A DNA stretch of 64,000 nucleotides from the NCBI RefSeq assembly GCF_003431825.1, contig NZ_CP020084.1, positions 62,001 to 126,000 on the forward strand, in the 5' to 3' direction. Of the stretch, positions 496 through 40,663 are shown one piece after another. The position numbers and the translations under genes are program-made. This DNA is from Blastomonas fulva. GTDB taxonomy: Bacteria; Pseudomonadota; Alphaproteobacteria; Sphingomonadales; Sphingomonadaceae. Position 1 is the stretch's first letter; every line of letters begins with the position of its first letter. The notes below the pieces were generated by a model that saw only the letters and a program-made list of their open reading frames with translations, was not told the origin of the DNA and did no database searches.

Positions 496-682
496 AAACC
501 CGCTCCTCTCAGCTAAGCCTCACCATCTTTCCCCTTTGGATCGACCCGACCTTCTCCTGCACGGCTCGCGATGGCCAACGCCCCTTTCGTCTGTGCGATG
601 CCAGATTGTACGCGATTGCCATGCGGCGCGTGTTCATTTAGAAAAGTAGGGCGATATCCGAACCACGCCGAAAGGTGTGGTC

Positions 683-1564
683 ATGAAAAATCTTCTATTT
701 TTCCTGGTTGCTTTGACGCCGACGCCATCGTCGGCGCGCGAAGCCATTCTCGACGTGTTTTCGCCAGAGGCAAAACCGGACTTCGCTGTGCTCGCCCCAC
801 AGTTGCGCGGGAAGGTCGATCTCGAGCAATCAGTGGAACCGCCTCCGGCTCTAGTGGATGCGTTTTCACCAGAGTTGAACGGCGACTTTGAGTTGATCCC
901 GCACAGCTTCACGATCAATCCCTATGCCGCGCGTCCCGCTGTTCCTTCGTGGATGCGGGCAGGTGCATCATTCATGGGCCCTGCTTCTTCACCTTCCCGC
1001 CCTGTGCAGGATGACCCACTCTGCCAGTCCCGCAGCTTCTTCCCGCGATATGGTATCAGCAGGGATGCCCAGGCTCGCCGGACAGCCTATTTCAACCTGA
1101 TCGTCGACGTCGCTTGTGCTGCCGGCGTGCCCGTTGTTCTGTTTGACGCCTTGCTGGCGCAGGAAAGCAGATATCGTCCCTTCGCCCGAAGCAGTGCCGG
1201 TGCGATGGGCATGGCGCAGCTGATGCCCGGTACGGCTCAGTATCTGCGTGTCAGCGATCCTTGGGATGTTCGGCAAAACCTTGTCGGCGGTGCGCGGTAT
1301 CTGCGCGAGCAGCTGGATCGCTTCGGGACATGGGAGCTTGCACTGGCTGCCTACAATGCAGGCCCGGGACGCGTTGACCAGTTTGGCGGTATCCCGCCGT
1401 TTCGTGAGACCCGCAACTATGTGCGCACGATCATGGGTTCGATCGGCAATCCGAATTCGACCGGCGGCGTGTCGCTTGCCTCGGCAGCACTTCCCGCGCC
1501 CAATCCGTTTCGCCGGGTGATGCTTGCCTCGTTCGAAGGACGATCAGACGTTCCAGAACACTGA
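683..1564 (+). CDS. Lytic transglycosylase, VirB1-like (SLT domain)
   Basis: Soluble lytic transglycosylase that opens peptidoglycan so the transfer apparatus can cross the wall. The N-terminus has a hydrophobic signal segment. The SLT domain occupies roughly residues 140-260 of the longest frame, with catalytic glutamate E163 in the AQES motif, followed by GAMGMAQLMPGTA and the AAYNAGPGRV motif, all diagnostic for this family. A GTG at 677 would add two residues; the ATG at 683 is preferred because AAAGG sits 7 nt upstream of it. It is close to the transfer genes, as VirB1-like enzymes usually are. Export to the periplasm is inferred. Confidence 0.9.
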   Translation: MKNLLFFLVALTPTPSSAREAILDVFSPEAKPDFAVLAPQLRGKVDLEQSVEPPPALVDAFSPELNGDFELIPHSFTINPYAARPAVPSWMRAGASFMGPASSPSRPVQDDPLCQSRSFFPRYGISRDAQARRTAYFNLIVDVACAAGVPVVLFDALLAQESRYRPFARSSAGAMGMAQLMPGTAQYLRVSDPWDVRQNLVGGARYLREQLDRFGTWELALAAYNAGPGRVDQFGGIPPFRETRNYVRTIMGSIGNPNSTGGVSLASAALPAPNPFRRVMLASFEGRSDVPEH

Positions 1565-1828: not shown

Positions 1829-3307
1829 CTAGTGCAGCGATGATCGAAGAGAGATACGCACTTTCGAAGCTCTTGTATCCCCCTGGCCGAATACTGCCTT
1901 TCTGCGGCCGAGCAGCGTGTGGCCGAGATTGAGTTCACCGCTGCGGGCGCGCCGCACCAGCGCCTGCATGTATGCATCGGGCGTCTTGCGGATTTGTCCG
2001 TTGGCCAAGTGATGCCCGGTGATCAGAGCGCACAGGAGTGCGACCCCTGTGCCCAGTGTCGCACTTGCCCGCGCGGCCGTAGCCTGGCCTATCTGGCAGA
2101 CCCGAGCGACCTCGTGGAGCTCGGTCAGGCCCGGTCGGGTTCCAATTTCGACCATGCCGTCGATAAAGGGGAAGAGGGCAGGGGCTTCGGCCCAAACGAA
2201 ACCCGATCGATGGATGCCGTAGACATCATGCGCGTCGGCCGAGACCTGCGCGTTCTGAAAAGCATCGGCTGTTTCTTGCTTCACCCTGTCGGCATCAGGT
2301 GTGGCTGGAATGTTATCAGGTTCTTGGCGGCAAACGCCCTCTGCCAAGCCGTATACAGATTCAAGAGCTTCTTCAGGGCTGTATTGATGGTGGTCATCCC
2401 GGCGCACCGTAGTGTCCCCGGAAGGTGTCAGCGACGAAATGTCGTCGAGCGATATGCGCTCTGACAACCGATCAAGCAGCCGGGTCGCGACCTCGGCGAG
2501 GCGGCCGAGCACTGCGATCGCGTCCATGGATCCTTTCCGCCTCTGGTATGTGCGCCGCGCCGCAGCGATCGCATCGAGCTTCGTTCTGGTCTTGTCAGCC
2601 CAGAGGTGGCCCTGCTCGAACGGCCGCAGCAGCCGGTACGCGCTGCTTGTTGCCCTTCGAATTTCATTGGGCAGTATCAGGTTTTGCGCGGCCAGGGCCT
2701 TCTCGGTGGCGGCCAGTTGTGTGAGGTAATCCTCAAGGAGGAGCAGCGGCGCCAGCGACCATCCTGATGCGTCGGAGCGATCCTCGCTGTCTCGTGACCC
2801 AAGAAATCGCTTGCCGTTGCCGGCGAGGCAATGGGGGATGATCAGGCCGTATTCGGCAAGGCGCCTGATGTTCTTGCGCGCGGCGGTCCACCCGATCCGG
2901 CATTTGAGATGGTCGTTCGAGGCGGCAATGAGCGGGCCGCAGCGGCTGTCCCAGTCGATATTCATGGCCGCGATGTTCGCGGCGGCATCGTAAAGATCGC
3001 GCCAGACGATTCTCGGAACATCGATCGTCACGGGCGGCATCCTCGCGAAGGTCTCGATGATGTCGAGCAGTTTGCGCCGACGCTGCCTGCCTGCGTTTTC
3101 GGTCCCGGTATGTCCGAACCCCCGCATCATCTTGCTGACGCGCGCTGCATGTCTAGCCCGATCTGCCGGGTCTTCCATGAAAGTGATCTTGGTCAGCTGG
3201 TCGGTCTCGAGCGTCCCCAGGTTTGGCAGACAGGCGCCGATCGCTGCTGGCCCTCCCCGGCGGCGGCTATTCACCTCCGAGGCTGCCTGATTTTTGACAA
3301 TAGTCAC
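1829..3307 (-). CDS. repC: RepC-like plasmid replication initiator
   Basis: A 492-residue protein resembling the RepC initiators of alphaproteobacterial repABC plasmids. The winged-helix region (about residues 100-190) has a WTAARKNIRRLAEYGLI recognition-helix stretch, a following NGKR motif and a GWSLAPLLLLEDY stretch, all positioned as in RepC. The C-terminus has the family-like tail AYMQALVRRARSGELNLG. It would bind and open the origin, which in RepC plasmids lies inside the gene itself. No repA or repB is adjacent, unlike classical repABC operons. The leader (3308-3500) holds a terminator on the opposite strand, suggesting antisense-RNA control. Family assignment is by pattern, without alignment. 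Confidence 0.8.
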   Translation of the reverse strand: MTIVKNQAASEVNSRRRGGPAAIGACLPNLGTLETDQLTKITFMEDPADRARHAARVSKMMRGFGHTGTENAGRQRRRKLLDIIETFARMPPVTIDVPRIVWRDLYDAAANIAAMNIDWDSRCGPLIAASNDHLKCRIGWTAARKNIRRLAEYGLIIPHCLAGNGKRFLGSRDSEDRSDASGWSLAPLLLLEDYLTQLAATEKALAAQNLILPNEIRRATSSAYRLLRPFEQGHLWADKTRTKLDAIAAARRTYQRRKGSMDAIAVLGRLAEVATRLLDRLSERISLDDISSLTPSGDTTVRRDDHHQYSPEEALESVYGLAEGVCRQEPDNIPATPDADRVKQETADAFQNAQVSADAHDVYGIHRSGFVWAEAPALFPFIDGMVEIGTRPGLTELHEVARVCQIGQATAARASATLGTGVALLCALITGHHLANGQIRKTPDAYMQALVRRARSGELNLGHTLLGRRKAVFGQGDTRASKVRISLRSSLH

Positions 3308-3677: not shown

Positions 3678-3953
3678 TCAGAGCATCATCGGTTGTCCTT
3701 CTGATGGTTCAGGCGATCTGAAGCTGAGCGTTGTCGCCACAATCGCTGCGATGACCGCTTCCCTGGACGAAAGATCATCCCTTTTCAGCTGGTCAATCAT
3801 CTCGATCATGGCTGCTGGCAGCCAGATTTCGAGGGGGTGCAGACCGTCCTTGCGGCGCCTGCGTCTTTGCTCCGCTTTCCGGTTCCGGGCGCCTTCCGCT
3901 GCCGGCGCACCGTTAGCGGCTAGGTGTTCGTGACCAGTCACGCGCTCCATCAT
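3678..3953 (-). CDS. Ribbon-helix-helix DNA-binding protein
   Basis: A 91-residue protein: a basic, Ala-rich N-terminus (RKAEQRRRRRKDG) followed by a clear strand-helix-helix pattern, LHPLEIWLPAAMIEMIDQ then LSSREAVIAAIVATTL, typical of RHH (MetJ/Arc/CopG-type) proteins. It probably binds DNA as a dimer through the LEIW strand. It is the last of three small minus-strand genes divergent from the transfer operon and separated from it by the 22-bp repeat array. A role in controlling transfer or marking the array is inferred. The second Met is an equally good start. Confidence 0.65.
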   Translation of the reverse strand: MMERVTGHEHLAANGAPAAEGARNRKAEQRRRRRKDGLHPLEIWLPAAMIEMIDQLKRDDLSSREAVIAAIVATTLSFRSPEPSEGQPMML

Positions 3954-3983: not shown

Positions 3984-4475
3984 TCATGCGTAGGCATGTT
4001 CAAATCCGCCGCCGTTATGCCGGTTCTCGAGTGACATATGGTGTTTCGCGATGGCGGTGGATGTCTTCTTCGCGATCGTTTCGCACAGGCTTTGACGGAT
4101 AGTTTCGAATTGCCCCTCGCATGCTGCCAGCTCGCTCGGAAGGCGAGCAGCGAGCGCGACCGCTACCAGGGCAGTCGTCTCGCAGCATGGGTCTTCGTAT
4201 GAGCTTGCGCTGTTGTAGCAGAGCAGAACGAGGCCGGCTCTGATTGGGTCAATCTCGAGGTGAACAAGGACCCTCTGGAATTCGTCTATTGTGAGGCTGC
4301 CGGCTTCGAGCCTTTCAAAAAAGCCTGCACGGCGGCTCCGTTTGAGGACTCCTTCGTCGGCCATCTTCCTGAGGCTCGTATGACGCAGCTGCATCTGTTC
4401 CTTGATCAGAGCAGCGTACATTCTGTTTACGCTATGGGCCTTTACTCCCAAGACCTCGGGCGTCCCCTTGCACAT
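3984..4475 (-). CDS. Small helix-turn-helix-like regulator candidate
   Basis: A 163-residue protein with a GGAGG ribosome-binding site 6-7 nt before ATG 4475. Residues about 25-80 contain SLRKMADEGVLKRSR, then FFERLEAGSLTIDEFQRVL, which look like helices of a Cro/XRE-type DNA-binding domain, though the match is weak. The remainder is helical with several Cys. It lies in a probable operon between two other DNA-binding candidates and upstream of the transfer genes. Function unknown beyond that; a transcription regulator is the most economical reading. Confidence 0.5.
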   Translation of the reverse strand: MCKGTPEVLGVKAHSVNRMYAALIKEQMQLRHTSLRKMADEGVLKRSRRAGFFERLEAGSLTIDEFQRVLVHLEIDPIRAGLVLLCYNSASSYEDPCCETTALVAVALAARLPSELAACEGQFETIRQSLCETIAKKTSTAIAKHHMSLENRHNGGGFEHAYA

Positions 4476-4506: not shown

Positions 4507-4896
4507 TCATAGTGTGATCTTGCCAGCGGGAATTTTGCAAGTGGAAAATTCGCCCTGCGCAACGAGTAAGGCACAGAACACAAGGGTTTCTCGTACGCCG
4601 CAATGGACTTTCGTCTTGGCGTTCAGCTCCCCTTTCAGGCGTTCGACAGCCGCATTTTCCTTCGAATTGAGCCGCACGTAGATGCGGATGGGGCCGTCCA
4701 CCGGGAGTTGAGCCACCAAGCCAGCTGCATGATCTTCCTTCGGTTCCTGATATCTCGCCAAGGCATAGAGAAGGACGTCTTTGAATTTTACGAAGCGGCC
4801 TCGTTCCAAGCTTAGCGAGGCTATGGCCTTTACGATCTGTTCGAAGGCCACATTGCTCACGGCGATTTCGTGCGCCACATGCGTGTTCTGCTCCAC
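4507..4896 (-). CDS. Putative ribbon-helix-helix regulator next to the 22-bp array
   Basis: A longer in-frame extension exists up to 5130, but it would read through the repeat array. GTG at 4896 is chosen because AGGAAGG lies 9 nt upstream and the protein becomes sensible there (129 residues). The C-terminal half has a strand (RIYVRLNS) followed by two helices (KENAAVERLKGELN and VRETLVFCALLVA), the order expected of an RHH fold. The N-terminal half is helical. It is the first gene of the minus-strand regulator operon, reading directly out of the 7 x 22-bp array, so it is the prime candidate to bind the array and autoregulate. The fold call is tentative. Confidence 0.55.
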   Translation of the reverse strand: MEQNTHVAHEIAVSNVAFEQIVKAIASLSLERGRFVKFKDVLLYALARYQEPKEDHAAGLVAQLPVDGPIRIYVRLNSKENAAVERLKGELNAKTKVHCGVRETLVFCALLVAQGEFSTCKIPAGKITL

Positions 4897-5251
4897 GTCC
4901 AACCACCTTCCTGTGTTTCCCGAAGGGTTGCCCCTTCGTCCGCTTCCGACACGGGTTCGAATCATTTTTCTGGCGGGCGGGAAGCCCCTGGTCAGAATTC
5001 CTGACCAGGGTGGTCGGAAATCACGACCGGGGTGGTCAGGAATCTCGACCGCCCCGGTCGGGAATCCAGACCGGGGTGGTTGCATATTCCGACCGGGCTG
5101 GCCGCGAATCGCAACCACCCTGGTTGCCAATTCCGGACCAGTCGCACGAATCGGCGTTCAGTTTCGAATCTAATGTTTGAGAAAAGGTGTCCCCCGGGAG
5201 GACTTTGGCTGTGGCGGTAGACGCCAGCATCCAACCGAAAGGGAAACCTCA
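4897..5251. other. Divergent intergenic region between regulator operon and traA
   Basis: 355 bp with no gene. It is dominated by the seven-unit repeat array (4990-5139). Downstream of it, AT-rich sequence (5157-5185) could hold the tra promoter, though no confident -35/-10 pair was assigned. GAAAGGGA before ATG 5252 serves as ribosome-binding site. Confidence 0.6.
4990..5139. repeat. Seven imperfect palindromes in tandem, period exactly 22 bp
   Basis: Units begin at 4990, 5012, 5034, 5056, 5078, 5100 and 5122. Each is a 17-18 bp imperfect palindrome of the form GGTCnGnAATnnCGACC (unit 2 is GGTCGGAAATCACGACC), separated by GC-rich spacers of 5 bp. Units 1-4 match the consensus best; units 5-7 drift (GGTT or GGCC left arms). 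Regular two-turn spacing is the hallmark of cooperative protein binding: operator, centromere, iteron origin, or oriT accessory sites. Confidence 0.9.
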
Positions 5252-5569
5252 ATGACCACTCTCGATCTGAAGAATCGCAGCGGCACGCTTGCTGTTGCGA
5301 TTGCGGCGCTCGCTGCCGCCAGCGTGTTCGGCGCTGATGCCGCAATGGCGGGAGCCGACTCGACCTTCAACACTGCTCTCGCCCGGTTCACCGGCTTCCT
5401 TGAAGGCTCCGGTGGCCGGATCATCACCGTGCTCTCGCTCGCCGGCGGGATCGTTGCGCTGGCGTCGGGCCGCTTTTCGCTGGGTCAGGTCGCAATCCCT
5501 GTGGGCGTCGGCGTCGGCGCCGGGACTGGCATTCCGATCGTCACCGCCTCGGTTACCGGCACGGTCTGA
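5252..5569 (+). CDS. traA: TraA-like conjugative pilin precursor
   Basis: A 105-residue protein. The N-terminal signal peptide is hydrophobic and ends in AMA at residue 33, leaving a mature pilin of about 72 residues, close to F pilin. The mature part has two hydrophobic segments (about 56-72 and 80-100) around a short polar turn. It is the first gene of the transfer operon, directly before traL, as in F-type clusters. The frame is open upstream to 5177, but ATG 5252 has the better ribosome-binding site and gives a proper leader. Pilin identity rests on position, size and topology rather than on sequence motifs. Confidence 0.75.
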   Translation: MTTLDLKNRSGTLAVAIAALAAASVFGADAAMAGADSTFNTALARFTGFLEGSGGRIITVLSLAGGIVALASGRFSLGQVAIPVGVGVGAGTGIPIVTASVTGTV

Positions 5570-5658: not shown

Positions 5659-5943
5659 TTGGACCAGTATTCGATCCCAAAACATCTCGACGATCCAGAA
5701 CTGATCGGGTTCTGGACCCTCGATGAATTCCTGGTGATGGTCATACCCTTCACCTGGGGCATCCTCGCTCAGCACGTTGTCATCGGGCTTCTTTTGGCCC
5801 TGGCTGCGTGGTTCGGCTATCGCAAAGTCAAAGCTGGGCGTTCGATGCATTGGGTCCTGCATTTTGCCTATTGGCATTTGCCGGGAGAATTCTTCGGTCT
5901 GAAGGTCGCTCCGCCATCTCATCTTCGTGTGATGGCGGGCTGA
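5659..5943 (+). CDS. traL: TraL, F-type pilus assembly membrane protein
   Basis: A 94-residue inner-membrane protein with the TraL signature: an N-terminal IPKHLDDPELIGFWTLDEF stretch, a central pair of hydrophobic segments and a basic C-terminus. It is needed for pilus extension in F-like systems. It starts with TTG at 5659, preceded by GGCGGAG. traE follows after one base. The order traA-L-E-K-B is canonical for MPF_F. Confidence 0.9.
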   Translation: MDQYSIPKHLDDPELIGFWTLDEFLVMVIPFTWGILAQHVVIGLLLALAAWFGYRKVKAGRSMHWVLHFAYWHLPGEFFGLKVAPPSHLRVMAG

Positions 5944-5944
5944 T

Positions 5945-6511
5945 ATGGAAATCTCTTTTGCCCACGAGGCGTCTCAGCGGACCCTCAAGCAACGCAACCT
6001 GCTTGCGCTCATCTGTGTCGTGCTCGGCATTCTCGTGGTGGTCATGTTCACCGCGGCATCGACGCGGGACCGCGAGGTCGTGCTGCAGCCCATCTTGCCC
6101 AGCCAGATGACGCTGAGCTCTGCGGCGCTCACGCCCGAATATCTTGAGGCCGCGACGCGCGACACCGCGCAGCTCGCGCTCAACCGCTCGCCCGAAACAC
6201 TCCAGTACTGGCTTGATAGCATCGTGGCCATTTCCGCTCCGGAGGCGCGCGGGGCTCTCAAGGCCAAGCTCCTGCGGATCGTGGCTGATCAGGAGGGGTC
6301 GCAGGTGACCCAGTTTGTCACGATCAACTGGATCCGCACCGATCCGGAAAACCTCACCAGCCAGGTCGGCGGCGTCCTTCATACCATCGTCGGATCCAAG
6401 GACGTGCGCCGCGAGCACAAGATCTTCGAATTTCACTGGACCTACACCGGCGTGTCGCTGCGCCTGAAGGGGTTTGGTGTCGTCGTTAAGAAGGAAGGAC
6501 CGAACCAATGA
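5945..6511 (+). CDS. traE: TraE, type IV secretion protein (VirB5/VirB8-like position)
   Basis: A 188-residue protein with one N-terminal transmembrane segment (about residues 18-40) and a periplasmic domain containing SPEALQYWLDSI-like and VTQFVTINWIRTDPENL-like stretches seen in TraE. Part of the F-type envelope-spanning assembly and pilus formation. It starts one base after the traL stop and overlaps traK by 4 bp, so they are translationally coupled. Confidence 0.9.
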   Translation: MEISFAHEASQRTLKQRNLLALICVVLGILVVVMFTAASTRDREVVLQPILPSQMTLSSAALTPEYLEAATRDTAQLALNRSPETLQYWLDSIVAISAPEARGALKAKLLRIVADQEGSQVTQFVTINWIRTDPENLTSQVGGVLHTIVGSKDVRREHKIFEFHWTYTGVSLRLKGFGVVVKKEGPNQ

Positions 6512-7308
6512 CCTTCTCTGTCTCGACGCTCTGCCTTGCCTCGGGCGCGCCGCTGCTTTTCCGCATCGACAGCCATCTTGTTCGAGGGTTTGGCGCTGCA
6601 CTTTTCACTGTCGGCTTCGTCATGGCGGCCACGCCAGCTTTTGCTGACGAAAGCATCCTCGCCGTCGATAATGGAGAGGTTCGCTGCCGGGCATCCAAGG
6701 CCGACCTGACGCGCATTTCGCTGAAGGATGACCGGTTCGTATCGGTATCCCGCGTGCAAACTGGCGTCGAGGGCCAAGACTTCTCGATCGTCCATGAACC
6801 CACCCGCGGCGATATCTACATCTCGGTCCCCGAAGCTTATTCGAAGCCGAACATCTCCTTCTTCGGGACGACGCAAAAGGGCCTTGTCTACAAGTTCGAC
6901 TGCCAGATTGGCGGTGACAGCGCCGTGCAGGTTTTCGTGGGCAACGCCGATATCGAAAATCCGTCCGCCAAACCTGAGGTCCTTACAGCATCAGGTTCGT
7001 TGCAGGATCGCGCTGTCGGGCTTGTCAGGGCGATGTTCGAACAGCGCCCCGTAACCGGCTTTGAGATCCGCGACGCGGCTCGTGCCCCGGTCAATGTCGG
7101 GGACATGAAGGTCCAGCTCATCACCGAGTACCGCAGCCCGACGATGACCGGGAAGGTCCTGCGCATCGAGAATACCAGCGCCTCACCGATCGCGCTTCGC
7201 GAAGAACTCATCGCCGGGGACGGTGCAATCGCCGTCACTATTTCCAACCCCAACCTCGCAAGCGGGCAGGCGACTGCTGCTTATGTGGTCGTGCCTGCAG
7301 GAAGGTAA
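6508..7308 (+). CDS. traK: TraK, outer-membrane complex component (VirB9-like)
   Basis: A 266-residue secreted protein; the signal region is long and ends near TPAFA. TraK forms the outer-membrane core with TraV and TraB and corresponds to VirB9. The C-terminal segment YRSPTMTGKVLRIENTSASPI resembles the family. Starts inside the last codons of traE (ATGA overlap). Confidence 0.88.
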   Translation: MTFSVSTLCLASGAPLLFRIDSHLVRGFGAALFTVGFVMAATPAFADESILAVDNGEVRCRASKADLTRISLKDDRFVSVSRVQTGVEGQDFSIVHEPTRGDIYISVPEAYSKPNISFFGTTQKGLVYKFDCQIGGDSAVQVFVGNADIENPSAKPEVLTASGSLQDRAVGLVRAMFEQRPVTGFEIRDAARAPVNVGDMKVQLITEYRSPTMTGKVLRIENTSASPIALREELIAGDGAIAVTISNPNLASGQATAAYVVVPAGR

Positions 7309-7313
7309 GCCTC

Positions 7314-8603
7314 ATGGATTTTCTTAAGCGCAAGCCCAAGGATCTGGATGGCGCCGAGGCCGATGGCCGCGATGCGGTCGATGAAACGGGCTCGATCATC
7401 GACAATGACAAGGCACAGAAGCGCCAGAGAATGCTGTTTTTCGGGCTGGGTGGTGTCGCGGTCGTGGCTTCGACCATGTATGTCTTGCGGACGGAAACCG
7501 CGGTCGAAGAGGCAACCAAGCCTGGGCATGAGACCGAGGTGTCAACCGATGCCCTGATGAACCGACAGCGCGTCGATCAGGAATGGATGGCCATCTACGA
7601 GGGTCAGGTTAACTCCCAGGATCAGCGTCTCAAGGGCGTCGAGGCGCAGGCTGGTCAGGTTGCGCAATTGCAGAGCGAGATTCAGGCATTGCGCGGTGAA
7701 AATGCCGCGATGGCGCGCGACGGGCAGCAGGTGCTCGAGGCCTATGAGCGTGAGAACCAGCAACTGCGCCAGCAGGTCACCAGGGGCACCCCCCGCCCGA
7801 CTGCCCCCGGGCCGGTCGCGGCTGCCCGTGAGATGGGCGTGCCTTCGCCGGCTGCGTCCGGCGCACCTTCCGCCACATTGCCCCGCCGCGGCAACGATGT
7901 GCAGATGGTGTCTTTCGCGCAAGCGGGCGGGACGGGCTCGCGCATTGATCCGGCCAAGGCCCCTGCGGTTTACACCGACTCGCCGAACTACCTCCCGCCC
8001 AACTCGATCGCGAATGCCACCGTGGTGGTCGGCGTTGATGCCACGACCAATACCCGCAGCCAGAGTGACCCTCTTCCGGTTCTTCTGCGTATCACGGGGC
8101 CGGCGCGCTCGGTCTATGGTGACGGTAAGCTGCTCGCGACCCGTGTGCAGGGCTGCATGGTCAATGGTGCGGCTTACGGCGATCTCTCCAGCGAGAAGGT
8201 CTATGTGAAGCTGCAGCGCATGACCTGCGCGCAGCCCGGCGGGCGCTTTGCGGTGTCCGAGGTCAAGGGCTTCATTGCCTTCGGCGGCAAAGTCGGCGTT
8301 CGCGGACGGGTTGTCAGCCGTGAAGGATCGCTGACCACGCAAGCGTTTCTCGCAGGGCTGGTGAGCGGGGTGGGCAACGCCTTTCAGGGTGCCAACCAGA
8401 TCCCCCGGATTTCCCAGGATCCCGTGCTCCCGTCAGCTTCCGATGTCGGCATTCAGGCTATTGGCGGCGGCGCGGCCAACGCTGGGAACACGCTCTCCGA
8501 CTATCTGATCGAACGGGCCGAGCAATATCAGCCGGTCGTCGAGATGCCCACCGGTGCTGCGGTCGAGGTCGTGTTCCTCGACGGCACCTTCATCAGGAAT
8601 TGA
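7314..8603 (+). CDS. traB: TraB, VirB10-like core complex scaffold
   Basis: A 429-residue protein: cytoplasmic N-terminus, single transmembrane segment (about residues 42-60), a coiled-coil stretch (about 85-150), a Pro/Ala-rich linker and the VirB10/TraB C-terminal beta domain with the GDGKLLATRVQGCMVNGAAYGDLSSE-like region (shown in part by VQGCMVNGAAYGDLSSE). It links inner and outer membranes and senses energy from the ATPases. Followed with overlap by the DsbC-like gene. Confidence 0.92.
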   Translation: MDFLKRKPKDLDGAEADGRDAVDETGSIIDNDKAQKRQRMLFFGLGGVAVVASTMYVLRTETAVEEATKPGHETEVSTDALMNRQRVDQEWMAIYEGQVNSQDQRLKGVEAQAGQVAQLQSEIQALRGENAAMARDGQQVLEAYERENQQLRQQVTRGTPRPTAPGPVAAAREMGVPSPAASGAPSATLPRRGNDVQMVSFAQAGGTGSRIDPAKAPAVYTDSPNYLPPNSIANATVVVGVDATTNTRSQSDPLPVLLRITGPARSVYGDGKLLATRVQGCMVNGAAYGDLSSEKVYVKLQRMTCAQPGGRFAVSEVKGFIAFGGKVGVRGRVVSREGSLTTQAFLAGLVSGVGNAFQGANQIPRISQDPVLPSASDVGIQAIGGGAANAGNTLSDYLIERAEQYQPVVEMPTGAAVEVVFLDGTFIRN

Positions 8604-28263: not shown

Positions 28264-28551
28264 ATGGTTAAGATCACTGGTCTCGACAAATTTACCCGCA
28301 CGCTCGACGATGCCCAGAAAGCCTTCGCCGAGATCGACGGCGAACTAGGTGCCGTCAATTTCAAACCCAACGATCCGGGCAGCATAGAGGCGGCCATCGC
28401 CCAGATGGAAGCCATGATCGACGAGCGCCTCGGAGACTACGCTTCCAATCCCATTGTCGTGCAGATGATGGAAGGTATGAAGGAGCGTTATCGCGACGCG
28501 ATTATTGAACGTGCCGCGCAGGCCCGTATGGAGGGCGATAGCGACCAATGA
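28264..28551 (+). CDS. Small protein preceding the TIR-like effector
   Basis: A 95-residue, acidic, helical protein with a good AAGGAG ribosome-binding site. It begins VKITGLDKFTRTLDDAQKAF and has an amphipathic helix AIAQMEAMIDERL. It overlaps the TIR-like gene by 4 bp, so the pair is translationally coupled. Function unknown; a partner or inhibitor of the TIR protein is a reasonable guess from the coupling alone. Confidence 0.7.
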   Translation: MVKITGLDKFTRTLDDAQKAFAEIDGELGAVNFKPNDPGSIEAAIAQMEAMIDERLGDYASNPIVVQMMEGMKERYRDAIIERAAQARMEGDSDQ

Positions 28552-29450
28552 GCACCGGTCCCGACCTGTTTGAACAAATCAATAATGCGGTTCTCGATCT
28601 TCAGGGTGCCCAGTATCAGAGCTACGACCGTCCGCTGAAGACGCTGGCGCGTTTGCTGAAGAGCCCGGAGTTGGTGCCTTATAACGAGCAGTTGACCGTC
28701 GGACTGGACCTCGACGCATTCCTCGATGAAAATGCACCGCGTGGCGGCAGGGTTGGCGGTGACAAGCTGGCTTGGCCGTTGGAACCTGAGAAAGTGCTGG
28801 GCCTGACCCTGCTGCTCATCGAGCGATTTGCAGAAAAGCCGCACGACATGGCGAGTTTCGGGCACACCTTTTATAATACGGGCCGCAAGATCATCGGCGA
28901 TGTACGCGCCGTTACGTCCCAAGTCATCATTCCCTTCGTCCGAGATTATAAGGCCTATGTCATGAGTCACGGCAGCTCTGCCCCGGCGCTGGCGCTCCCT
29001 TCGTCACACAACAACAAAGTGTTTATCGTCCACGGCCATGACGGCGAGGCGCGCGAGACGGTTGCGCGCTATTTGGAGAAAATCGGGTTCGCCCCGATCA
29101 TCCTGCATGAGCAGGCCAATCGCGGCCGCACCGTGATCGAGAAGGTGGAGGCCAATAGCGATGTCGGATTTGCCGTCGTTCTGCTGACCCCGGACGATGA
29201 GGGCTGCAAGAAGGGAGAGACCCCGGAACCCCGCGCCAGGCAGAACGTCCTTCTTGAGCTGGGCTATTTTATCGGCAAGCTGGGCCGCGACCGCGTGTGT
29301 GCCTTCCAGCGTGGCAAGGTCAATATCCCCAGTGACTTCGCCGGAGTGGTTTGGACCGTCATGGATGAAAGCAATGGCTGGAAGCAGGAGCTGGCGCGCG
29401 AACTTTCGGCTGCCGGTTACACGATCGACTGGAATACGGTCATGAAGTGA
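28548..29450 (+). CDS. TIR-like nucleotide-binding protein (PF10137-type)
   Basis: A 300-residue protein with an N-terminal helical sensor-like half and a C-terminal TIR-like domain (about 157-290). Motifs: KVFIVHGHDGEARETVARYL (157-176), IILHEQANRGRTVIEKVE (184-201), FAVVLLTPDDEG and RQNVLLELGYFIGKLGRD, where E237 is the likely catalytic glutamate. Related domains act as NAD-degrading or signalling effectors in antiphage systems (for example Cap12/TIR-STING). The defence role here is inferred from the family and neighbourhood. No cyclase gene is nearby. Confidence 0.85.
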   Translation: MSTGPDLFEQINNAVLDLQGAQYQSYDRPLKTLARLLKSPELVPYNEQLTVGLDLDAFLDENAPRGGRVGGDKLAWPLEPEKVLGLTLLLIERFAEKPHDMASFGHTFYNTGRKIIGDVRAVTSQVIIPFVRDYKAYVMSHGSSAPALALPSSHNNKVFIVHGHDGEARETVARYLEKIGFAPIILHEQANRGRTVIEKVEANSDVGFAVVLLTPDDEGCKKGETPEPRARQNVLLELGYFIGKLGRDRVCAFQRGKVNIPSDFAGVVWTVMDESNGWKQELARELSAAGYTIDWNTVMK

Positions 29451-29582
29451 CCAAATGTCTGGCCGTTCACGTGCGCGTTGGATTGCCAACTTCCTGAGAG
29501 CAACCTGCGGAAGTTGGCGAACCCTCGTCTCTTGGCCAGTGACCAAAATTGGGGCGCAAAGCTGACATCGGCCTTGGGCCTG

Positions 29583-30692
29583 TTACGCCGCTTCCGACAC
29601 TTCCAGGAATAGCCGGACCAGCTCAGTATTAATGTAGTAGTTGTGCTTGCCGGCGCGCTGCTTCACCACGAACCCCTGCTCTGCCAGTGCATCGAGGTAC
29701 TTGGCGGCGGTCTGTCGGGCCCTCAGACCAAGATCCCGCTGGACGTACTCGATGCGTGTGTAGGGGTGCCGGAAGAGGTTGTTGAGCAGCTCCTGACTGT
29801 AAAGCCGCGGTAGCTCGGCACGCATCCTGTGTTTGGCCCTGGCCATTTGGTCGCGGATCCCTTCCACGATGCGGAGCGTGGTGGCCGCCGTCTCGGCGAC
29901 GCCCTCGAGCATATAGATCACCCAAGCCTCCCATGCCTCCTGCGCCCCGGCGCTGTCACGCACAGCCTGAAGCAGGCGGTAATAGTCGGCTTTGTGCCGG
30001 GTGACGTGACGGGAAAGGTAGAGGACAGGGATGTCGAGCAGACCAGTGCGCGTCAGGTATAGGACGTTCAGGATGCGGCCAATGCGCCCGTTCCCGTCGG
30101 GGAAGGGGTGTATGCTTTCGAACTGATGATGGATCAGCGCCATCTTGATCAGGGGATCGAGGTCGCTCACGGTATCGTCGTTCACAAAACGCTCGAGCGC
30201 GGTCATTTGCTCGACGATGTCCCGCGCATCTTGTGGCGGAACATAAACGATTGCCCCGGTTCGGTCATGTTTCAGGGCAGTGCCGGGCGTCACCCGAAAC
30301 CCGTCGTCGCGCCCCTTCAGCAGTCTGAACATATCGATGAGAACGGAATTAGGGATCAGGCCCCCGGTCTCCAGAATTCGGGCATAGCCGAGCCGGAGGG
30401 CATCGCGGTAGAGCGCCACTTCCTTCGAGGCAGGTGATTGCGGGTCATCAGGAAAGAGGTCGGCCTGAAAAAGCTCGTCCTGGGTGGTGACGATGTTTTC
30501 GACTTCGGACGATGCCTTCGCTTCCTGAAGGGCAAGCGTGTCGATGAGGATCCCCTGATTGGGGATTGTGCGCGCCTGCCCCTTGAGGTCGGCAAGAGCC
30601 CGACTTGCGGCATTGAGTGCCTTGAGGATGGGCACGGTTTCGAGGTCGACGCCCGGAGGAAGTGGTGGGATGATGTAGGTCGGCGCTAACAT
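29583..30692 (-). CDS. Fic-family AMP-transferase, class II, with winged helix
   Basis: A 369-residue Fic protein. The active motif is HPFPDGNGRIGR (H195-R206). An inhibitory motif of the S-x3-E-N type lies at S61-N66 (SSEVEN), so it is class II, self-inhibited. The C-terminus (about 300-369) is a winged helix (YVQRDLGLRARQTAAKYL then EQGFVVKQR), as in many free-standing Fic proteins that transfer AMP to targets and may regulate themselves. Its promoter carries an inverted repeat over the -10 box. Confidence 0.92.
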   Translation of the reverse strand: MLAPTYIIPPLPPGVDLETVPILKALNAASRALADLKGQARTIPNQGILIDTLALQEAKASSEVENIVTTQDELFQADLFPDDPQSPASKEVALYRDALRLGYARILETGGLIPNSVLIDMFRLLKGRDDGFRVTPGTALKHDRTGAIVYVPPQDARDIVEQMTALERFVNDDTVSDLDPLIKMALIHHQFESIHPFPDGNGRIGRILNVLYLTRTGLLDIPVLYLSRHVTRHKADYYRLLQAVRDSAGAQEAWEAWVIYMLEGVAETAATTLRIVEGIRDQMARAKHRMRAELPRLYSQELLNNLFRHPYTRIEYVQRDLGLRARQTAAKYLDALAEQGFVVKQRAGKHNYYINTELVRLFLEVSEAA

Positions 30693-30703
30693 GACACTCG
30701 CAA

Positions 30704-30735
30704 CGTGTTAAAGAAATCGCGATTATCCTAACACG
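30704..30735. promoter_or_regulatory. Operator-like inverted repeat in the fic promoter
   Basis: CGTGTTA at 30704-30710 and TAACACG at 30729-30735, perfect 7-bp arms with an 18-bp centre. It covers the -10 box of the minus-strand promoter and lies 12 bp before the fic start. The Fic winged helix is a natural candidate to bind it. Confidence 0.6.
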
Positions 30736-30753
30736 ACAATGTGCACATGTCAG
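30725..30753 (-). promoter_or_regulatory. Promoter of the fic gene
   Basis: Minus strand: CTGACA (30753-30748), 17-bp spacer, TAGGAT (30730-30725). About 33 bp from the -10 box to the ATG at 30692. Confidence 0.5.
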
Positions 30754-30898
30754 CGTTCTGCCAATCGCGCTTACCCGAAATATACGCCCACCCCCACTCC
30801 GCGACGCCAGCGCAGCAGTTAGCGCCCGCCGAAGCGAGTGTTCTGAGACGTGAAGCGGGCCCCCTCCTTGCCCCACGTCCAAATCGTAGGATATGCTC

Positions 30899-31942
30899 CT
30901 AGGTGTCCAGGAAGTCCCATTCGCTGCCGGTGACCCAGCGCAATGCGCTCAGCTTGCCGTTGAGCATTCCCCATTCGAAATCGTCCCAAGGCCCGAGGTT
31001 TTCTTCGCCAATCTCCTTCCTGGCCTGTTCACCGGCGGCGAGGGCTGCCTCCAAAGTGCCACGCGTAATCTGGTCCTGACGGTAATGGCCCTTCTCGGTC
31101 TTGCCCAACTCGTCCACGATCTCGATCTCGCCACTCTCCACGCGACACATTAGATTGAGATGGCGGTTGTACCAGACTTGGCGGAAAAGGAGGTGCTCCG
31201 CCTCCAATATCTCGCTCAAGCTGCGTGGCTTTTCCTCATACTCAAACTCCCACTTCAGGTCTTCCATCCAATCGGGAGCATAAGCGTTTAGCACCTCCCC
31301 GAGAGCGAGGGCATATGTGGAACCGTCTGCCGCAAATAGCTCGGCAATATCGGGATGTGGCGCTCGCTGATCGGCGTTCATGTCCGAGAAGTCGTGCTTA
31401 TTGTGGGTCACGAAGGCAAGGTGATCGTCGTCGCCCTTGCCAACCAGCATGTCGCGGTAGATTTCCAACAAGACCGCATCTGCCATACTGTTCTTGTTTT
31501 TGTGAAAAGGGCAGAGCTTGTCGATTGCGCGCTGCGCGGCCCTGATTTTCACGTCATCCGAAGTCTGAACAATTGCCCCGTCGGTCAGCAGCTTCTCAAT
31601 GCGATCGATGTTGAAATTGGCATATTCTCCTTGTTTGCTGATGCGGTAATCCATGTCGCTCAACTGCCTCAACAAGGTGTCGCGGCCTTCCTCTCCGCCG
31701 TGATCGCGAATGGCGTCGCTGACCCGCTTGAAGACCGCGCTGATGCTTTGGCTGGCTTCTTTGACCAAGCGGCCCTTGTTACGCTCGAACTCGTCCAGCG
31801 TCTGTTGAGGAACGACTAGTTCGACGTCGCCATCGCGGATCAGGTCGACGAGCACGTCTAGAGTTTTCAGGTGGCGATAATCCTTGGCAATGTCGAGCCA
31901 CACGCAGGTATCGATCAGAATTCTCAGCATGACGCCTCCCAA
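30899..31942 (-). CDS. PIN-domain protein (DUF4935-like)
   Basis: A 347-residue protein. The N-terminal PIN domain shows ILIDTCVWLD at the start, TLDEFERNK, NSMADAVLLE and FVTHNKHDF, which supply the acidic residues of a metal-dependent RNase. The C-terminal 150 residues are of unknown type and acidic. The length fits DUF4935-type PIN proteins of defence regions rather than VapC (about 130). No antitoxin gene is adjacent. Starting at the second ATG (MLRILID) would be equally sensible. Confidence 0.8.
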   Translation of the reverse strand: MGGVMLRILIDTCVWLDIAKDYRHLKTLDVLVDLIRDGDVELVVPQQTLDEFERNKGRLVKEASQSISAVFKRVSDAIRDHGGEEGRDTLLRQLSDMDYRISKQGEYANFNIDRIEKLLTDGAIVQTSDDVKIRAAQRAIDKLCPFHKNKNSMADAVLLEIYRDMLVGKGDDDHLAFVTHNKHDFSDMNADQRAPHPDIAELFAADGSTYALALGEVLNAYAPDWMEDLKWEFEYEEKPRSLSEILEAEHLLFRQVWYNRHLNLMCRVESGEIEIVDELGKTEKGHYRQDQITRGTLEAALAAGEQARKEIGEENLGPWDDFEWGMLNGKLSALRWVTGSEWDFLDT

Positions 31943-32002
31943 ACTGCTTGTTATGGTAGGCGCAGAAGTTGGCGCGAAAAACCGGATTTAGGACTGGCCT
32001 AG

Positions 32003-32818
32003 TTAATCGGACTGAACAGGCCTCTGGGATACGCGGCATTCGCGTCTTCTATCAGCCAATGCATCGAGCTGCCGGAAAAGGTTCTCGCCTATTTCTACTA
32101 CCGTGGCGATGTCGCAGATCAGCTGGGCATGGAAGCGCACCGGCTGCGCCGCTTCACCGTAGGAATGCATTATGTGCGGTTCGAAGGAGCCAAGCTGGTC
32201 TTGCATGCCTCCTAGTTCATCGAAACGGATCCAGTCGCCTTGTGCAGCGGCTTCGCCGCGTTGAGCTTCGATAGCAGCGAAGCTGTGTTGATCGGCGGTG
32301 CCAAGTTGCCTTGGCGGAATATATAGGGGGATGCGGTGTGCAAGCGCATGCCTATAGTTCTCAAGATAAGCAAACCATTGTTGATGCTCGGCAAGGTAGG
32401 CCTGAAGGTCCGCCGGTAAAGACATCCAGACAATCTCGTTGTCCGGCTTTAGCCCAATCCGACTCGGTGCAAGCGGGCGTTTGCGCTTATCTCTGATATC
32501 CCATTCGGCACACCAAATGTGAGCCAAGTTGTCGATCGCGCCGTACACGTTGATTACGAACGTGTGGATGAATGCCGTAGAGTCCATTAGCGATACGCGT
32601 GATGGGGATGCCTCGTCCGGTGGGATGCTTTCGAAAACACGGTCGATGCAGTGTTCAAGCATATTGAGCCGTCTGCTCAGGCCATGCACGCCGAACTCTC
32701 TGGCACGCTGGCTGCTATACGGGCGGCTTATGGTGGCCGCAGTTAGATCGCGGCACCTATCCGTCCATTTCTGGCTTTCGGCCAAAAGCCCAGCAATCTC
32801 GTCAGGTGTGTAGGGCAC
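32003..32818 (-). CDS. HEPN-like protein of unknown function
   Basis: A 271-residue helical protein. The stretch ENYRHALAHRIPLYIPP contains an R-x4-H motif (R156, H161), the signature of HEPN RNases. The rest has a conserved-looking FVINVYGAIDNLAHIWC helix. No signal or membrane part. It could be a free-standing RNA-cutting toxin or an accessory; the assignment is by motif only. Confidence 0.6.
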   Translation of the reverse strand: MPYTPDEIAGLLAESQKWTDRCRDLTAATISRPYSSQRAREFGVHGLSRRLNMLEHCIDRVFESIPPDEASPSRVSLMDSTAFIHTFVINVYGAIDNLAHIWCAEWDIRDKRKRPLAPSRIGLKPDNEIVWMSLPADLQAYLAEHQQWFAYLENYRHALAHRIPLYIPPRQLGTADQHSFAAIEAQRGEAAAQGDWIRFDELGGMQDQLGSFEPHIMHSYGEAAQPVRFHAQLICDIATVVEIGENLFRQLDALADRRRECRVSQRPVQSD

Positions 32819-33021
32819 GGGATCCTTTCGCTGGCTAGTGGGATAACGATCTTTGTTACAGCCATGTTCGTTGCAAGCGCTGTGGATATCGAGCGTTCTC
32901 GTTCGTTAACGCGGCAATTTCGTTTTCCAACAAGGTCGTAATTCGGCTGCGGCGGATGGAAAACCGATATGGTCCGGATCAAGTCGATCTGACGTGAGCC
33001 CCAGCTTTCCCCCAGCTGGGA

Positions 33022-33933
33022 TTAGAGCCGAGCGGTTGTTTTGCGCATCAGCGCGGTTGAAGCAATGGGCTGCATAGCGGAGCCCGTAGGGCGTAGCGAA
33101 GCAGGCCATTGCTTATCCAGTTTGGCGGCGAACGCCGCCGGGGTTGCATAGCCAAGGGACGAGTGCGGTCTCTCCCGGTTGTAATCCTCGACCCAGGCAG
33201 CGATCTCGACCCGGGCGTGGGCGAGGCTCATGAACAGGGTCTCGTTCAGCAGCTCATCGCGCATGCGGCCGTTGAAGCTCTCGACGTAGCCGTTCTGCAT
33301 CGGCTTGCCCGGCGCGATGTAATGCCACTCGACCCCGATCTGCGCTACCCAAGCGAGCACGGCATTGCTGGTGAGCTCGGTGCCATTATCGCTGACGATC
33401 ATGCCGGGCTTGCCCCGCTGGGCGATCAGCCGGGTCAGCTCGCGCACGACGCGGTGTCCGGAGATCGAGGTATCCGGCACAGCCGCCAGGCACTCCCTGG
33501 TCACGTCGTCGACCACATTGAGGACGCGGAACCGTCTGCCAGAAGCCATCTGGTCATGGACGAAGTCCAAGCTCCAGCGCTGGTTCGGTAGCGCCAGCAC
33601 CGGAGCCGGTGCCCTGGTCCCGACAGCACGCTTGCGGCTGCGCCGCCGCCTCACCGCCAGACCTTCCTCACGATACAGCCGCTGGGTCTTCTTGCGGTTG
33701 ATCATCACACCCTCCCGGCGCAGCAGGATATGCAGGCGGCGGTAGCCGAACCGGCGTCGCTGGTTGGCTAGCCCGCGCAGCTTCTCGCGCAGGGCACCGT
33801 CATCATCCCGGATGGAACGGTAGCGCACGCTCTTGCGATCAGCATCGATGACGCGGCACGCCCGCCGCTCGCTCATCCCATGGCACGCTTGGAGATGAGC
33901 GGCAGCTTCCCGCTTCGCGGCGGGCGTCACCAC
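33022..33933 (-). CDS. IS3-family transposase OrfB (DDE integrase domain)
   Basis: A 303-residue rve-type integrase: SLDFVHDQ with the first Asp, [13 protein letters not shown] with the second Asp, and [15 protein letters not shown] with the Glu. The N-terminus has the HTH_21 region. Read as a fusion with OrfA through a -1 frameshift at AAAAAAG (33934-33939 on the minus strand), since the GTG start has no separate ribosome-binding site. Confidence 0.92.
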
Positions 33934-34193
33934 TTTTTTGAAAGCAAATCCTTCAGAGCCACGTTGTCCAGCATCGCATCGGCCAGCAGCCGCTTGAGCT
34001 TCGCGTTCTCGCTCTCGAGCTCCCGCAAACGCCGGGCCTCCGACACCTCCATCCCCCCATACTTGGCCTTCCAGTTGTAGATCGTCGCTTCCGACACACC
34101 GTGCCGCCGAGCAAGATCAGCGGTCTTCGCACCCGCCTCCGCCTCCTTCAGCACGCCAATGATCTGCTCTTCTGAAAACCTCATACGCTTCAT
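33927..34193 (-). CDS. IS3-family transposase OrfA (HTH and leucine zipper)
   Basis: An 88-residue protein: [16 protein letters not shown], then helix-turn-helix [17 protein letters not shown], then a leucine-zipper-like helix [20 protein letters not shown]. Ends in ...SKKW across the slippery A6G, overlapping OrfB by 7 bp. Binds the IS ends. Confidence 0.92.
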
Positions 34194-34346
34194 CGTCTGT
34201 CCTTCCTTCAGGCCAGACTCTAATCGCTCGTGGAGGAAAATCAGGGGGTCACGTCAGATCAGTTTCCAGAACCAAATTGCTGCCATCGGGTAGTTGGCCG
34301 TGCCCGATTGGTGCTTGAGTGAGCCGATCAGATCGGGTTGATCGCA

Positions 34347-34739
34347 TCAAATCCCGCGAAGCCGTTCGCCCTTCGCGCCGATTTCATAGAACCCACTGGA
34401 AACGGACTCGGATATGCTGACCAATGTTGGCCAGAGCGTCAGAATGCGTGCGCACTGTCGCTCGGCGGACCACTTGGCAACCGCTGGAGCAGGGAAGAAA
34501 CCGACCAGCCCGGCCTGCGCAAAAAGGTGTCTGGATGGCCGCTTCTTGGCGATATTGCGGTCAGCTGTCAGTACGCACCACCGACCCTCTTTCCCGAGAA
34601 GCTCGATCCATTCTTCGTCCTTGAGGCTCCCAGTGCCAAATTTGTCCTTGATGTGGACAACGGTGTGAATGCCTTCGAAAAACGCACCCAGTCCCCGGCC
34701 AAGCCTTGGGGGCAGGTTGTTGTCTACCAGCAGCTTCAT
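34347..34739 (-). CDS. DUF5615-type PIN-like toxin candidate
   Basis: A 130-residue protein beginning MKLLVDNNLPPRLGRGL, with VVHIKDKFG and RWCVLTADRNIAKKR following: the DUF5615/Mut7-C-like PIN pattern. Overlaps the upstream DUF433-type gene by 4 bp, the usual order (antitoxin first). Probable RNase toxin of a toxin-antitoxin pair. Confidence 0.75.
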   Translation of the reverse strand: MKLLVDNNLPPRLGRGLGAFFEGIHTVVHIKDKFGTGSLKDEEWIELLGKEGRWCVLTADRNIAKKRPSRHLFAQAGLVGFFPAPAVAKWSAERQCARILTLWPTLVSISESVSSGFYEIGAKGERLRGI

Positions 34740-35416
34740 GCAGCCTTTCGTGCACCGAGACTTGCTTCGTACTCGAGGGCATCGCGGATGAGTTTCGGCT
34801 TGATGTCATAGACCTTGGCGGCCTGATCGACGGAGCCTTCTGCGGCCACGATCTCGGCGATCCGCGCGGTCGAGATTCCAGGGTCGGCTAGGATAGGTTG
34901 GCCAAAGGACCGTGCCGGGTCCGCCACGACAGTCTTCTTTCCGTGAAGCAGCCACCAGCGTTCGGCACCAGCTGGCCCGAAGTCCAAATCCTCAAGGCTG
35001 GGCTCGACGACCCGCTTGAAAACACCCTGGCTTTTCTTGAGATCGATGAACTCCGGTTCATCGATGTTCCGGGTTATCTCGAGAAAAATGGTTTTCCCAT
35101 CGGTCCGAAATTGCTGGGTTGAAAACGGCCGTTCGTCACCGACGATGACCCTCGCTCGCTCAATGCATTGGCGGATTGTGGTTAGCCCAATGCGGCGCTT
35201 TCGCAAGGCGTTGACGATGCGTGCTTCCACCAGATCCCGGAAACCGAGCAGCACACCGTCTTCATCAGGTTCGTATTGGGGTTGCCATAACGCCGGCTCG
35301 TCTTTGTTGTCGTGATGATAGCCGAGTAGCCAGCGACGCAGGGTAGCCTGACTCATCCCGACCATTCGGGATGCCTCAAGTGCCGTGTAGGCGCCGATGC
35401 CATATTCTCCTTCCAT
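34736..35416 (-). CDS. DUF433-type antitoxin with MerR-like N-terminus
   Basis: A 226-residue protein from the ATG at 35416 (the frame is open to 35503, but that extension looks spurious and AAGGAG-like spacing favours neither strongly). N-terminus: GAYTALEASRMVGMSQATLRRWLLGY, a MerR-like helix-turn-helix. C-terminus: GISTARIAEIVAAEGSVDQAAKVYDI then IRDALEYE, the DUF433 pattern. Coupled to the PIN-like toxin gene. It would bind both the toxin and its own promoter. Confidence 0.75.
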   Translation of the reverse strand: MEGEYGIGAYTALEASRMVGMSQATLRRWLLGYHHDNKDEPALWQPQYEPDEDGVLLGFRDLVEARIVNALRKRRIGLTTIRQCIERARVIVGDERPFSTQQFRTDGKTIFLEITRNIDEPEFIDLKKSQGVFKRVVEPSLEDLDFGPAGAERWWLLHGKKTVVADPARSFGQPILADPGISTARIAEIVAAEGSVDQAAKVYDIKPKLIRDALEYEASLGARKAA

Positions 35417-35596
35417 GACGGCCTTATAGTCACAAGCTGTGACGCTGGGCCAAGAATTTTTGCAATGAGGGCCGGGCAGTTTCGCCGACACCGTGCACTG
35501 CAACCAGCCTAGCTACGACCGGCCGATCTTGATCCAATCGCGCAGCTCAACCAGCGTAAAGGTATGCCCCCGGCCAATGATATCGCCATCCCAGTT

Positions 35597-36064
35597 TCAG
35601 TACTCGCTGCGATAGTCCGAGGTTAGGCCTGTTTGATCGGCAAGATCATCCAAAACGCATATCGTGGTTTGCAGCAGCAGCTTCATTCTGTCCGCATCAG
35701 TCCAATAGGCGCTGCCGTGCTTGCCACCGTGAAACAGATTGTTGCGCACGGCGTTTGCGAGCCGAACGACGCGCTCGAGATCGCTTGCCCCGGGATTGAA
35801 GCCGACGTCTCGAAAATCGAGGCCTGTCTCGGTTACGATTTGTCGCTTCGGGTTCGCTGCGATCAGTGCCTTGCCCGCTGCATTGATCTGATAGCCGTCC
35901 TTGTGCGCGTTGATGAAGCGGGTCCAGTCTGCCTCAGCCTTTTCGCCTGGCTCGAGCTTCTTCAGCATTCGCGCCTCTTTCAGCGCATATTCGAAGCGCG
36001 AGAACCAGAAGAAGAAGTCGTAGACGAGCGGACGAAGCTCGTCAGGGATTTCATCGTGTCGCAT
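35597..36064 (-). CDS. HEPN-like protein coupled to the Mrr-like nuclease
   Basis: A 155-residue helical protein. AVRNNLFHGGKHG carries an R-x4-H motif (R107, H112) typical of HEPN RNases. The ATG at 36064 overlaps the stop of the nuclease gene (ATGA-type), so the two are coupled. Function inferred only from the motif; it may be a toxin or a structural partner. Confidence 0.65.
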   Translation of the reverse strand: MRHDEIPDELRPLVYDFFFWFSRFEYALKEARMLKKLEPGEKAEADWTRFINAHKDGYQINAAGKALIAANPKRQIVTETGLDFRDVGFNPGASDLERVVRLANAVRNNLFHGGKHGSAYWTDADRMKLLLQTTICVLDDLADQTGLTSDYRSEY

Positions 36065-37044: not shown

Positions 37045-37189
37045 CGCCAGAACATATGCTTACGTCACCGACTCATCAAGGTGAGTAGCTGCGTGAAGAT
37101 ACCCTTCAACCTTTGATTTGAGGACGTCGCGACTGGGCAGCTCGCCTCGATGCCCGGACAAGGCGCAGATTGGCGCAGAAAAGCTCGCG

Positions 37190-37207
37190 ATACGAAGGCC
37201 TTCGTAT
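37190..37207. promoter_or_regulatory. Perfect 18-bp palindrome between the two divergent defence operons
   Basis: ATACGAAGGCCTTCGTAT reads the same on both strands. It lies 55 bp upstream of the helicase start and 146 bp upstream of the nuclease start, in the shared regulatory gap (37045-37261), so it is a likely operator. The binding protein is unknown. Confidence 0.7.
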
Positions 37208-37261
37208 GGCTGATGAGTTTCGGGGGCTAGTCTGATTTACAGGCCATGCTACCCAGTCTGG

Positions 37262-40138: not shown

Positions 40139-40151
40139 GAGCCCTCATACT

Positions 40152-40661: not shown

Positions 40662-40663
40662 AT

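Follow-up and report, generated by a model that had tools for sequence, protein, structure and literature searches.

The F-type transfer operon on contig C2 (145,829 bp) of the two-contig Blastomonas fulva genome is preceded by a ladder of seven palindromic units spaced at exactly 22 bp, lying between the pilin gene traA and a divergent pair of genes referred to here as X and Y. Comparison with related traA loci shows that this ladder is real and widespread, and that its pitch and place are conserved while its letters turn over. Among the roles initially proposed for it – operator of the transfer operon, plasmid centromere, iterons of an origin, or accessory sites at oriT – the operator proves to be the best reading, and we consider it probable that the ladder serves as a cooperative multi-site operator for Y, a predicted Xre-type helix-turn-helix (HTH) protein, which from a position between the divergent X-Y and tra promoters would repress both. 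Coordinates below are those of the window, the entire 64,000-nucleotide stretch analyzed (positions 62001-126000 of C2), unless a contig or locus is named.

The ladder occupies positions 4990-5139 (no strand assigned), with units starting at 4990, 5012, 5034, 5056, 5078, 5100 and 5122 and with the word (T)GGTCNGNAATNNCGACC. Out of a maximum of eight complementary pairs per 17-bp unit, units 1 to 7 form 7, 6, 6, 7, 5, 6 and 3 respectively, and the sum of 40 out of 56 is the highest among all seven-unit chains of 22-bp pitch in the 64-kb window (mean 14.6, sd 3.33). The seven units and their pitch are as originally predicted, except that unit 7 is weak, with three of eight pairs as a 17-mer, and is better described as an 18-mer with its end at 5139. 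The originally predicted consensus fits without mismatch at two units only, and the proposal that drift is limited to arms and spacers does not hold, the unit centers varying as well. The genome contains many single matches to this consensus with no more than two mismatches (143 forward and 129 reverse, with 73 and 87 for the reversed pattern), and the signal is thus the array and not the single word.

On the left of the ladder, X (4507-4896, minus strand) has a GTG start, is the upstream gene of the X-Y pair and encodes a 129-aa predicted tandem ribbon-helix-helix (RHH) protein with an F TraY-like fold; the expectation of an array before the tra operon whose nearest gene encodes a predicted RHH-fold protein is supported. 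Y (3984-4475, minus strand) encodes a 163-aa protein with its HTH at about residues 14-89, and it is followed by a gene for a 91-aa protein (3678-3953, minus strand), a gene for a RepC-like protein (1829-3307, minus strand) and a lytic transglycosylase (SLT) gene (677-1564, plus strand), the outer member of a conserved block whose order is common to loci L009-L018 and L020. At the place of the RepC-like gene, L009 and L010 have an HTH protein of similar size, and L011-L018 and L020 have none; in L019, repC is annotated nearby. We note that a further small 91-aa protein with hydrophobic stretches is encoded at 1544-1819, overlapping the end of the transglycosylase gene, and that an ORF of the same length is present at that place in several relatives (e.g. 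L009, L011, L016). The order transglycosylase, Y, X, traA is seen in 11 of the 14 fetched plasmid loci, and is not fully visible in L008 (transposon), L019 (record end) and L021 (no annotation).

To the right of the ladder, the pilin gene traA (5252-5569, plus strand) is identified by sub-threshold matches to TrbC/VirB2 and to NCBIfam TraA, and is followed by traL, traE, traK and traB (TrbI) (5659-8603, plus strand), which begin an F-type transfer operon continuing with traU, traN, traF, traH and traG up to 24115. The traA leader contains a TTGAGAAA block (5177-5184, plus strand) that is identical in 14 aligned leaders of this clade, and a small hairpin at 5213-5225 with four consensus pairs, one of them changed on both sides; with so few pairs and no Rfam match, an RNA leader was rejected as the main feature. 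Elsewhere on the contig, MOBF relaxase matches in different frames lie near the contig end and beside a TraD-like ORF (C2:143744-144551, in L147, outside the window), which may reflect either a broken gene or a sequence error. The region 28548-47178, possibly a defence island, encodes a CAP12/Pycsar-type TIR protein, a Fic protein, a PIN-domain protein, an SNF2 helicase, an N6/N4 DNA methylase and a ResIII/DEAD protein; an integrase-type transposase gene is interspersed with these.

Related loci were taken from 84 matching plasmid records and from genome contigs, the latter being the best 80 of 392 candidates; a TraA match is present in 80 of 397 genomes of the family. Non-redundant sets held first 60 of 107 upstream regions and later 74 of 123, with L038 and L103 left out of all upstream sets together with loci having less than 300 bp before traA (less than 320 bp for the 74-locus set). 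Mean local self-identity across the 60 regions peaks at lags 21 and 22 (0.42 and 0.45, with about 0.34 elsewhere), and a second, lower peak is present at lags 42-44. When arrays are scored strictly, 49 of the 74 loci score above the 99th percentile of 148 control windows drawn from these loci, and 47 score above the control maximum. The first ladder unit lies a median of 244 bp before traA. The best period of these 49 arrays is 21 in 26 cases, 22 in 22 and 20 in one, such that the anticipated conservation of pitch in related tra loci is found, at 21 or 22 bp, in 48 of them; none of the 74 loci scores above 80 at periods of 17, 19, 23, 24 or 26. Twenty-five loci do not reach the strict threshold, and 18 of these encode both X and Y.

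Dyad symmetry is significant (p<=0.05) in 41 of 56 arrays, a generous array count in that refined scores are compared with an unrefined null (49 of 74 is the strict count). Palindrome chains alone are a weaker indicator than the repeat test, the 21-22 band being best in 32 of 60 regions and each of the four other bands in between 4 and 10. The words differ by lineage, with GGTC..GACC, TTCCCG..CGGGAA and TGCCCCG..CGGGGCA forms, of which the TTCCCG word is that of the pNL1 clade and is kept in L021. A search for the window's consensus next to traA in other plasmids had been suggested as a check on the ladder; pitch, place and, in 41 of 56 arrays, dyad symmetry are kept in these relatives but the word is not, and a refutation based on the word would thus mislead. 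By eye, L013 and its group carry the window's GGTC-type word although their Y recognition region differs, a recurrence that may represent convergence or may speak against a simple code. Loci in other genomes (L050, L126-L131), several of them on large contigs, have a 21-bp ladder with a distant relative of Y and no X, and are possibly integrated conjugative elements. We found no account of this ladder in the literature searched, which lay mostly outside subscription journals.

Y is predicted to adopt a five-helix Cro/C1-type HTH fold and X to contain two RHH units in one chain, with a fold like that of F TraY at 9-14% identity in structural alignments; protein searches recovered relatives of both (17 for Y, 12 for X), none with a functional name. 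Y is detected in 72 of the 74 loci and X in 59. Arrays accompanied by Y and by no detectable X number 12 with refined scores and 10 with strict ones (L126-L129 being close kin of one another), whereas no strict array has X but lacks Y. An X match is absent from the whole record of L021 and from the genomes of L048, L050, L061 and L072, and the L071 genome has a single X match, located elsewhere; the X-less L061 has no array.

Which protein reads the ladder was also examined by covariation with the word, for which the recognition region of Y was taken as residues 42-60, chosen after viewing the structural model, and clades were set by Y identity above 0.38, in a repeat of a test whose clades had been picked after the words were seen. 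In clade A (10 loci) the Y recognition region correlates with the word at rho 0.65 (p 0.002) and X at 0.23 (p 0.14), and in clade C (12 loci) the values are 0.73 (p 0.002) and 0.07 (p 0.39), with TraA not significant in either. Partial tests in clades A and C yield 0.63 and 0.73 for Y given X, and -0.13 and 0.09 for X given Y. Clade B (14 loci), in which the words are nearly alike, gives 0.50 for X (p 0.008), 0.38 for the Y recognition region (p 0.04) and 0.59 for the whole of Y, with partial values of 0.46 for X given Y and 0.06 for Y given X. The word follows the Y recognition region, not X, in two of the three clades.

A global test on the 31 loci with X, Y and an array also places X (0.45) above the Y HTH (0.32), with 0.35 for X given Y and 0.11 for Y given X; a TraE control was left out of it, as the ORF picked differs between loci. 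In a larger set of 42 of the 74 loci, X scores 0.49, the Y recognition region 0.41 and TraA 0.52, and when TraA is taken into account these become 0.20 for X, 0.31 for the X beta strands and 0.25 for the Y recognition region. Because X is equalled in score by TraA, a protein that does not bind DNA, we interpret the global result as a reflection of shared ancestry.

Six close pairs of loci were also compared segment by segment, with the codon row of L076/L091 excluded as out of register (their starts differ). The tra genes are 95-98% alike in two of these pairs: between the window and L008, traL-E are 98% and traA 96% identical, X is 70%, the recognition codons are 62% and the array region is 55%, and between L011 and L049, the latter with a score of 79.4 and so below the array threshold, X is 88%, the recognition codons 67% and the array region 58%. 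The window and L024 are alike at 97% in the array and 96% in the recognition codons, with 84% in the Y C-terminal codons. The array is the least conserved segment in L053/L055 and L069/L096 (79% and 69%), the recognition codons being less changed (88% and 82%), and in L076 versus L091 the X protein is 91% identical, the recognition region 58%, and the word similarity 0.65.

Taken with the occurrence of the two genes, these comparisons lead us to favor Y over X as the reader with reasonable, though not complete, assurance. The alternative, that X is the protein bound at the ladder, which would then be an autoregulated operator or an oriT-accessory platform resembling the train of three TraY proteins on F oriT, appears unlikely. 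The X gene lies closest to the ladder and its predicted product shares the TraY fold, F TraY is reported to bind several sites at oriT (PMC12117103), and the global tests and clade B are on its side; against it are the strict arrays lacking X, its failure to track the word in clades A and C, and the different words of L076 and L091 despite their well-conserved X. X probably acts beside Y, at oriT or a promoter, and does not read the ladder. Of the two proteins singled out in the original prediction for gel shifts, X is thus probably not the one that binds, and the more likely candidate, Y, had not been named; the other, encoded at 3678-3953, was rejected, having a weak MazE-like match below the cut-off and no gene annotated at its place in L011-L018.

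Quite improbable is a centromere-like stability site, or a dual site such as the stbDRs of R388, where StbA binding is described as both stabilizing the plasmid and limiting conjugation (PMC3098194). No Par family is represented among the ten ORFs scanned around the ladder. There is a general resemblance, in that a repeat ladder and a neighboring HTH gene lie at transfer genes and the stbDRs are reported to be two sets of five 9-bp repeats with 2-bp spacing and an 11-bp pitch (PMC3098194); but consecutive genes for a ParA-type ATPase, a SopB-type ParB and an RPA replication initiator are found on the contig at about 41.6-45.3 kb of C2 (L146:1604-5323), with 18-bp repeats downstream (L146:5468-5485, 5744-5761 and near 5777). 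This separate cluster weakens both the centromere and the iteron proposals, and either use of the ladder is unlikely. It is highly doubtful that the palindromes act as RNA or single-stranded-DNA hairpins – an attenuator, terminator or strand-transfer signal – in place of protein sites, since the strong single-stranded fold of 4985-5145 (z -7.3 against 200 shuffles) is what is expected of any palindrome array, hairpins would not need a strict helical pitch, no Rfam match occurs in the window, and the sole terminator-like site within 4860-5280 lies outside the ladder. Replication iterons are barely credible: the RepC-like gene is 1.7 kb from the ladder, but another initiator is present on the contig, and L011, L013 and pNL1 (L016) have strict arrays with no rep gene annotated in the fetched stretches.

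A second feature of these regions is a pair of GANTC peaks that bracket the array. In the window, GANTC occurs on the X side of the ladder at 4959-4963, on the traA side at 5148-5152 and again at 5166-5170, and three times inside units 3, 4 and 6 (5040-5110, starts at 5040, 5062 and 5106; no strand assigned to any of the sites). It is the most enriched of the 16 palindromic five-base patterns before traA in 60 loci (153 against 85.7, z 7.7), and its density is 25.1 and 14.9 per kb in the two flanking peaks, whose windows were chosen after viewing the histogram, and 1.54 elsewhere. All four letters are seen at the middle base, as expected for a methylation site. The X-side site is present in 63 of 74 loci, the traA-side site in 46 and both in 43, while the array stretch between them has GANTC in 14 of 74, compared with 185 of 1480 random windows. 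Since these controls consist mainly of coding DNA, part of the contrast may be general to intergenic DNA, although the two-peak pattern is less easily explained in this way.

The X-side site is independent of X, being present in 49 of 59 loci with X and 14 of 15 without. The traA-side site (80-150 bp before traA), by comparison, accompanies X in 44 of the 59 loci that have it and occurs in 2 of the 15 X-less loci (Fisher p 2e-5, kinship uncorrected). The placement of GANTC near the presumed flanking promoters is that of promoters responsive to CcrM and GcrA, and GcrA is encoded in this genome. No sigma-70 consensus promoter was found in 4860-5280. The pattern suggests that the flanking promoters may also be sensitive to CcrM methylation, perhaps through GcrA. 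F TraM is reported to bind GANTC motifs (PMC8136818), and by analogy X could be a reader of the traA-side GANTC beside CcrM/GcrA.

In the mechanism that we propose, each palindrome would be bound by one Y dimer, and because the pitch corresponds to two helical turns, neighboring dimers would line up along one face of the helix and their binding would be cooperative. We infer that the filled ladder would repress from between them both the X-Y promoter, by autoregulation, and the tra operon promoter, with relief through loss of Y or some signal. X, the TraY-like RHH protein, would probably act beside Y at oriT or a promoter rather than on the ladder, and CcrM methylation, perhaps via GcrA, could gate the flanking promoters. 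Each plasmid lineage would have its own Y recognition region and its own word, and the Y of one plasmid thus would not be expected to silence the transfer genes of another. As a more tentative proposition, which we regard as rather speculative, the sphingomonad F-type systems may form 'transfer immunity groups', in which the word of a two-turn ladder is rewritten repeatedly together with the recognition helix of its repressor, giving a private switch insulated from co-resident relatives; the CcrM sites at both ends could make transfer depend on the host cell cycle or on whether newly arrived DNA is hemimethylated, and the traA-side site, kept almost only with X, may be where X meets the methylation mark.

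If this is correct, F-type transfer in a large environmental group, including plasmids such as pNL1 and pCAR3 that are reported to carry xenobiotic-degradation genes (PMC3877037), would be governed by a ladder that is recognizable by its spacing despite the change of its letters. It would provide many natural repressor-operator pairs for studying the evolution of DNA recognition, would predict which plasmids silence one another, and would put forward host cell-cycle DNA methylation as a directly testable control of conjugation.

Several components of this arrangement have counterparts in known systems. In the F plasmid the traY gene adjoins traA, and X is likewise a predicted single-chain RHH pair whose gene adjoins traA, but it has 9-14% identity to TraY and is divergent to traA, and no oriT was located. 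The GANTC sites recall the GcrA/CcrM promoters of Alphaproteobacteria, in which GANTC lies near the promoter and for which an extended motif of YGAKTCK or YGAKTCG is reported (PMC7987155), although the targets described are cell-cycle genes and repABC (PMC11514494) and tra promoters are absent among the GcrA/CcrM targets in the literature searched. The StbA/stbDR system of R388 similarly combines a DNA-binding protein with helically spaced repeats beside the transfer region, but its direct 9-bp repeats at 11-bp pitch are described as adjoining oriT and as having a role in stability (PMC3098194), whereas in the window palindromes at 22-bp pitch lie next to traA, and the contig carries its Par cluster elsewhere. 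Along with StbA, the closest studied parallel is Rco of the Bacillus plasmid pLS20, an Xre-family repressor of conjugation reported to act at repeated sites at divergent promoters, of its own gene and of the conjugation operon, with the helical phasing of its operators being important (PMC4207663); Rco and Y are likened here by type and layout. The pLS20 operators OI and OII consist of CAGTGAAA motifs, are 75 bp apart and function by looping (PMC4207663), whereas the window has one continuous palindrome ladder with a two-turn pitch and words specific to each lineage. Multi-site HTH control of conjugation is thus of a kind already known, and what would be new, if confirmed, are two features: a fixed pitch on which the words are repeatedly rewritten, and the CcrM-type sites at both ends.
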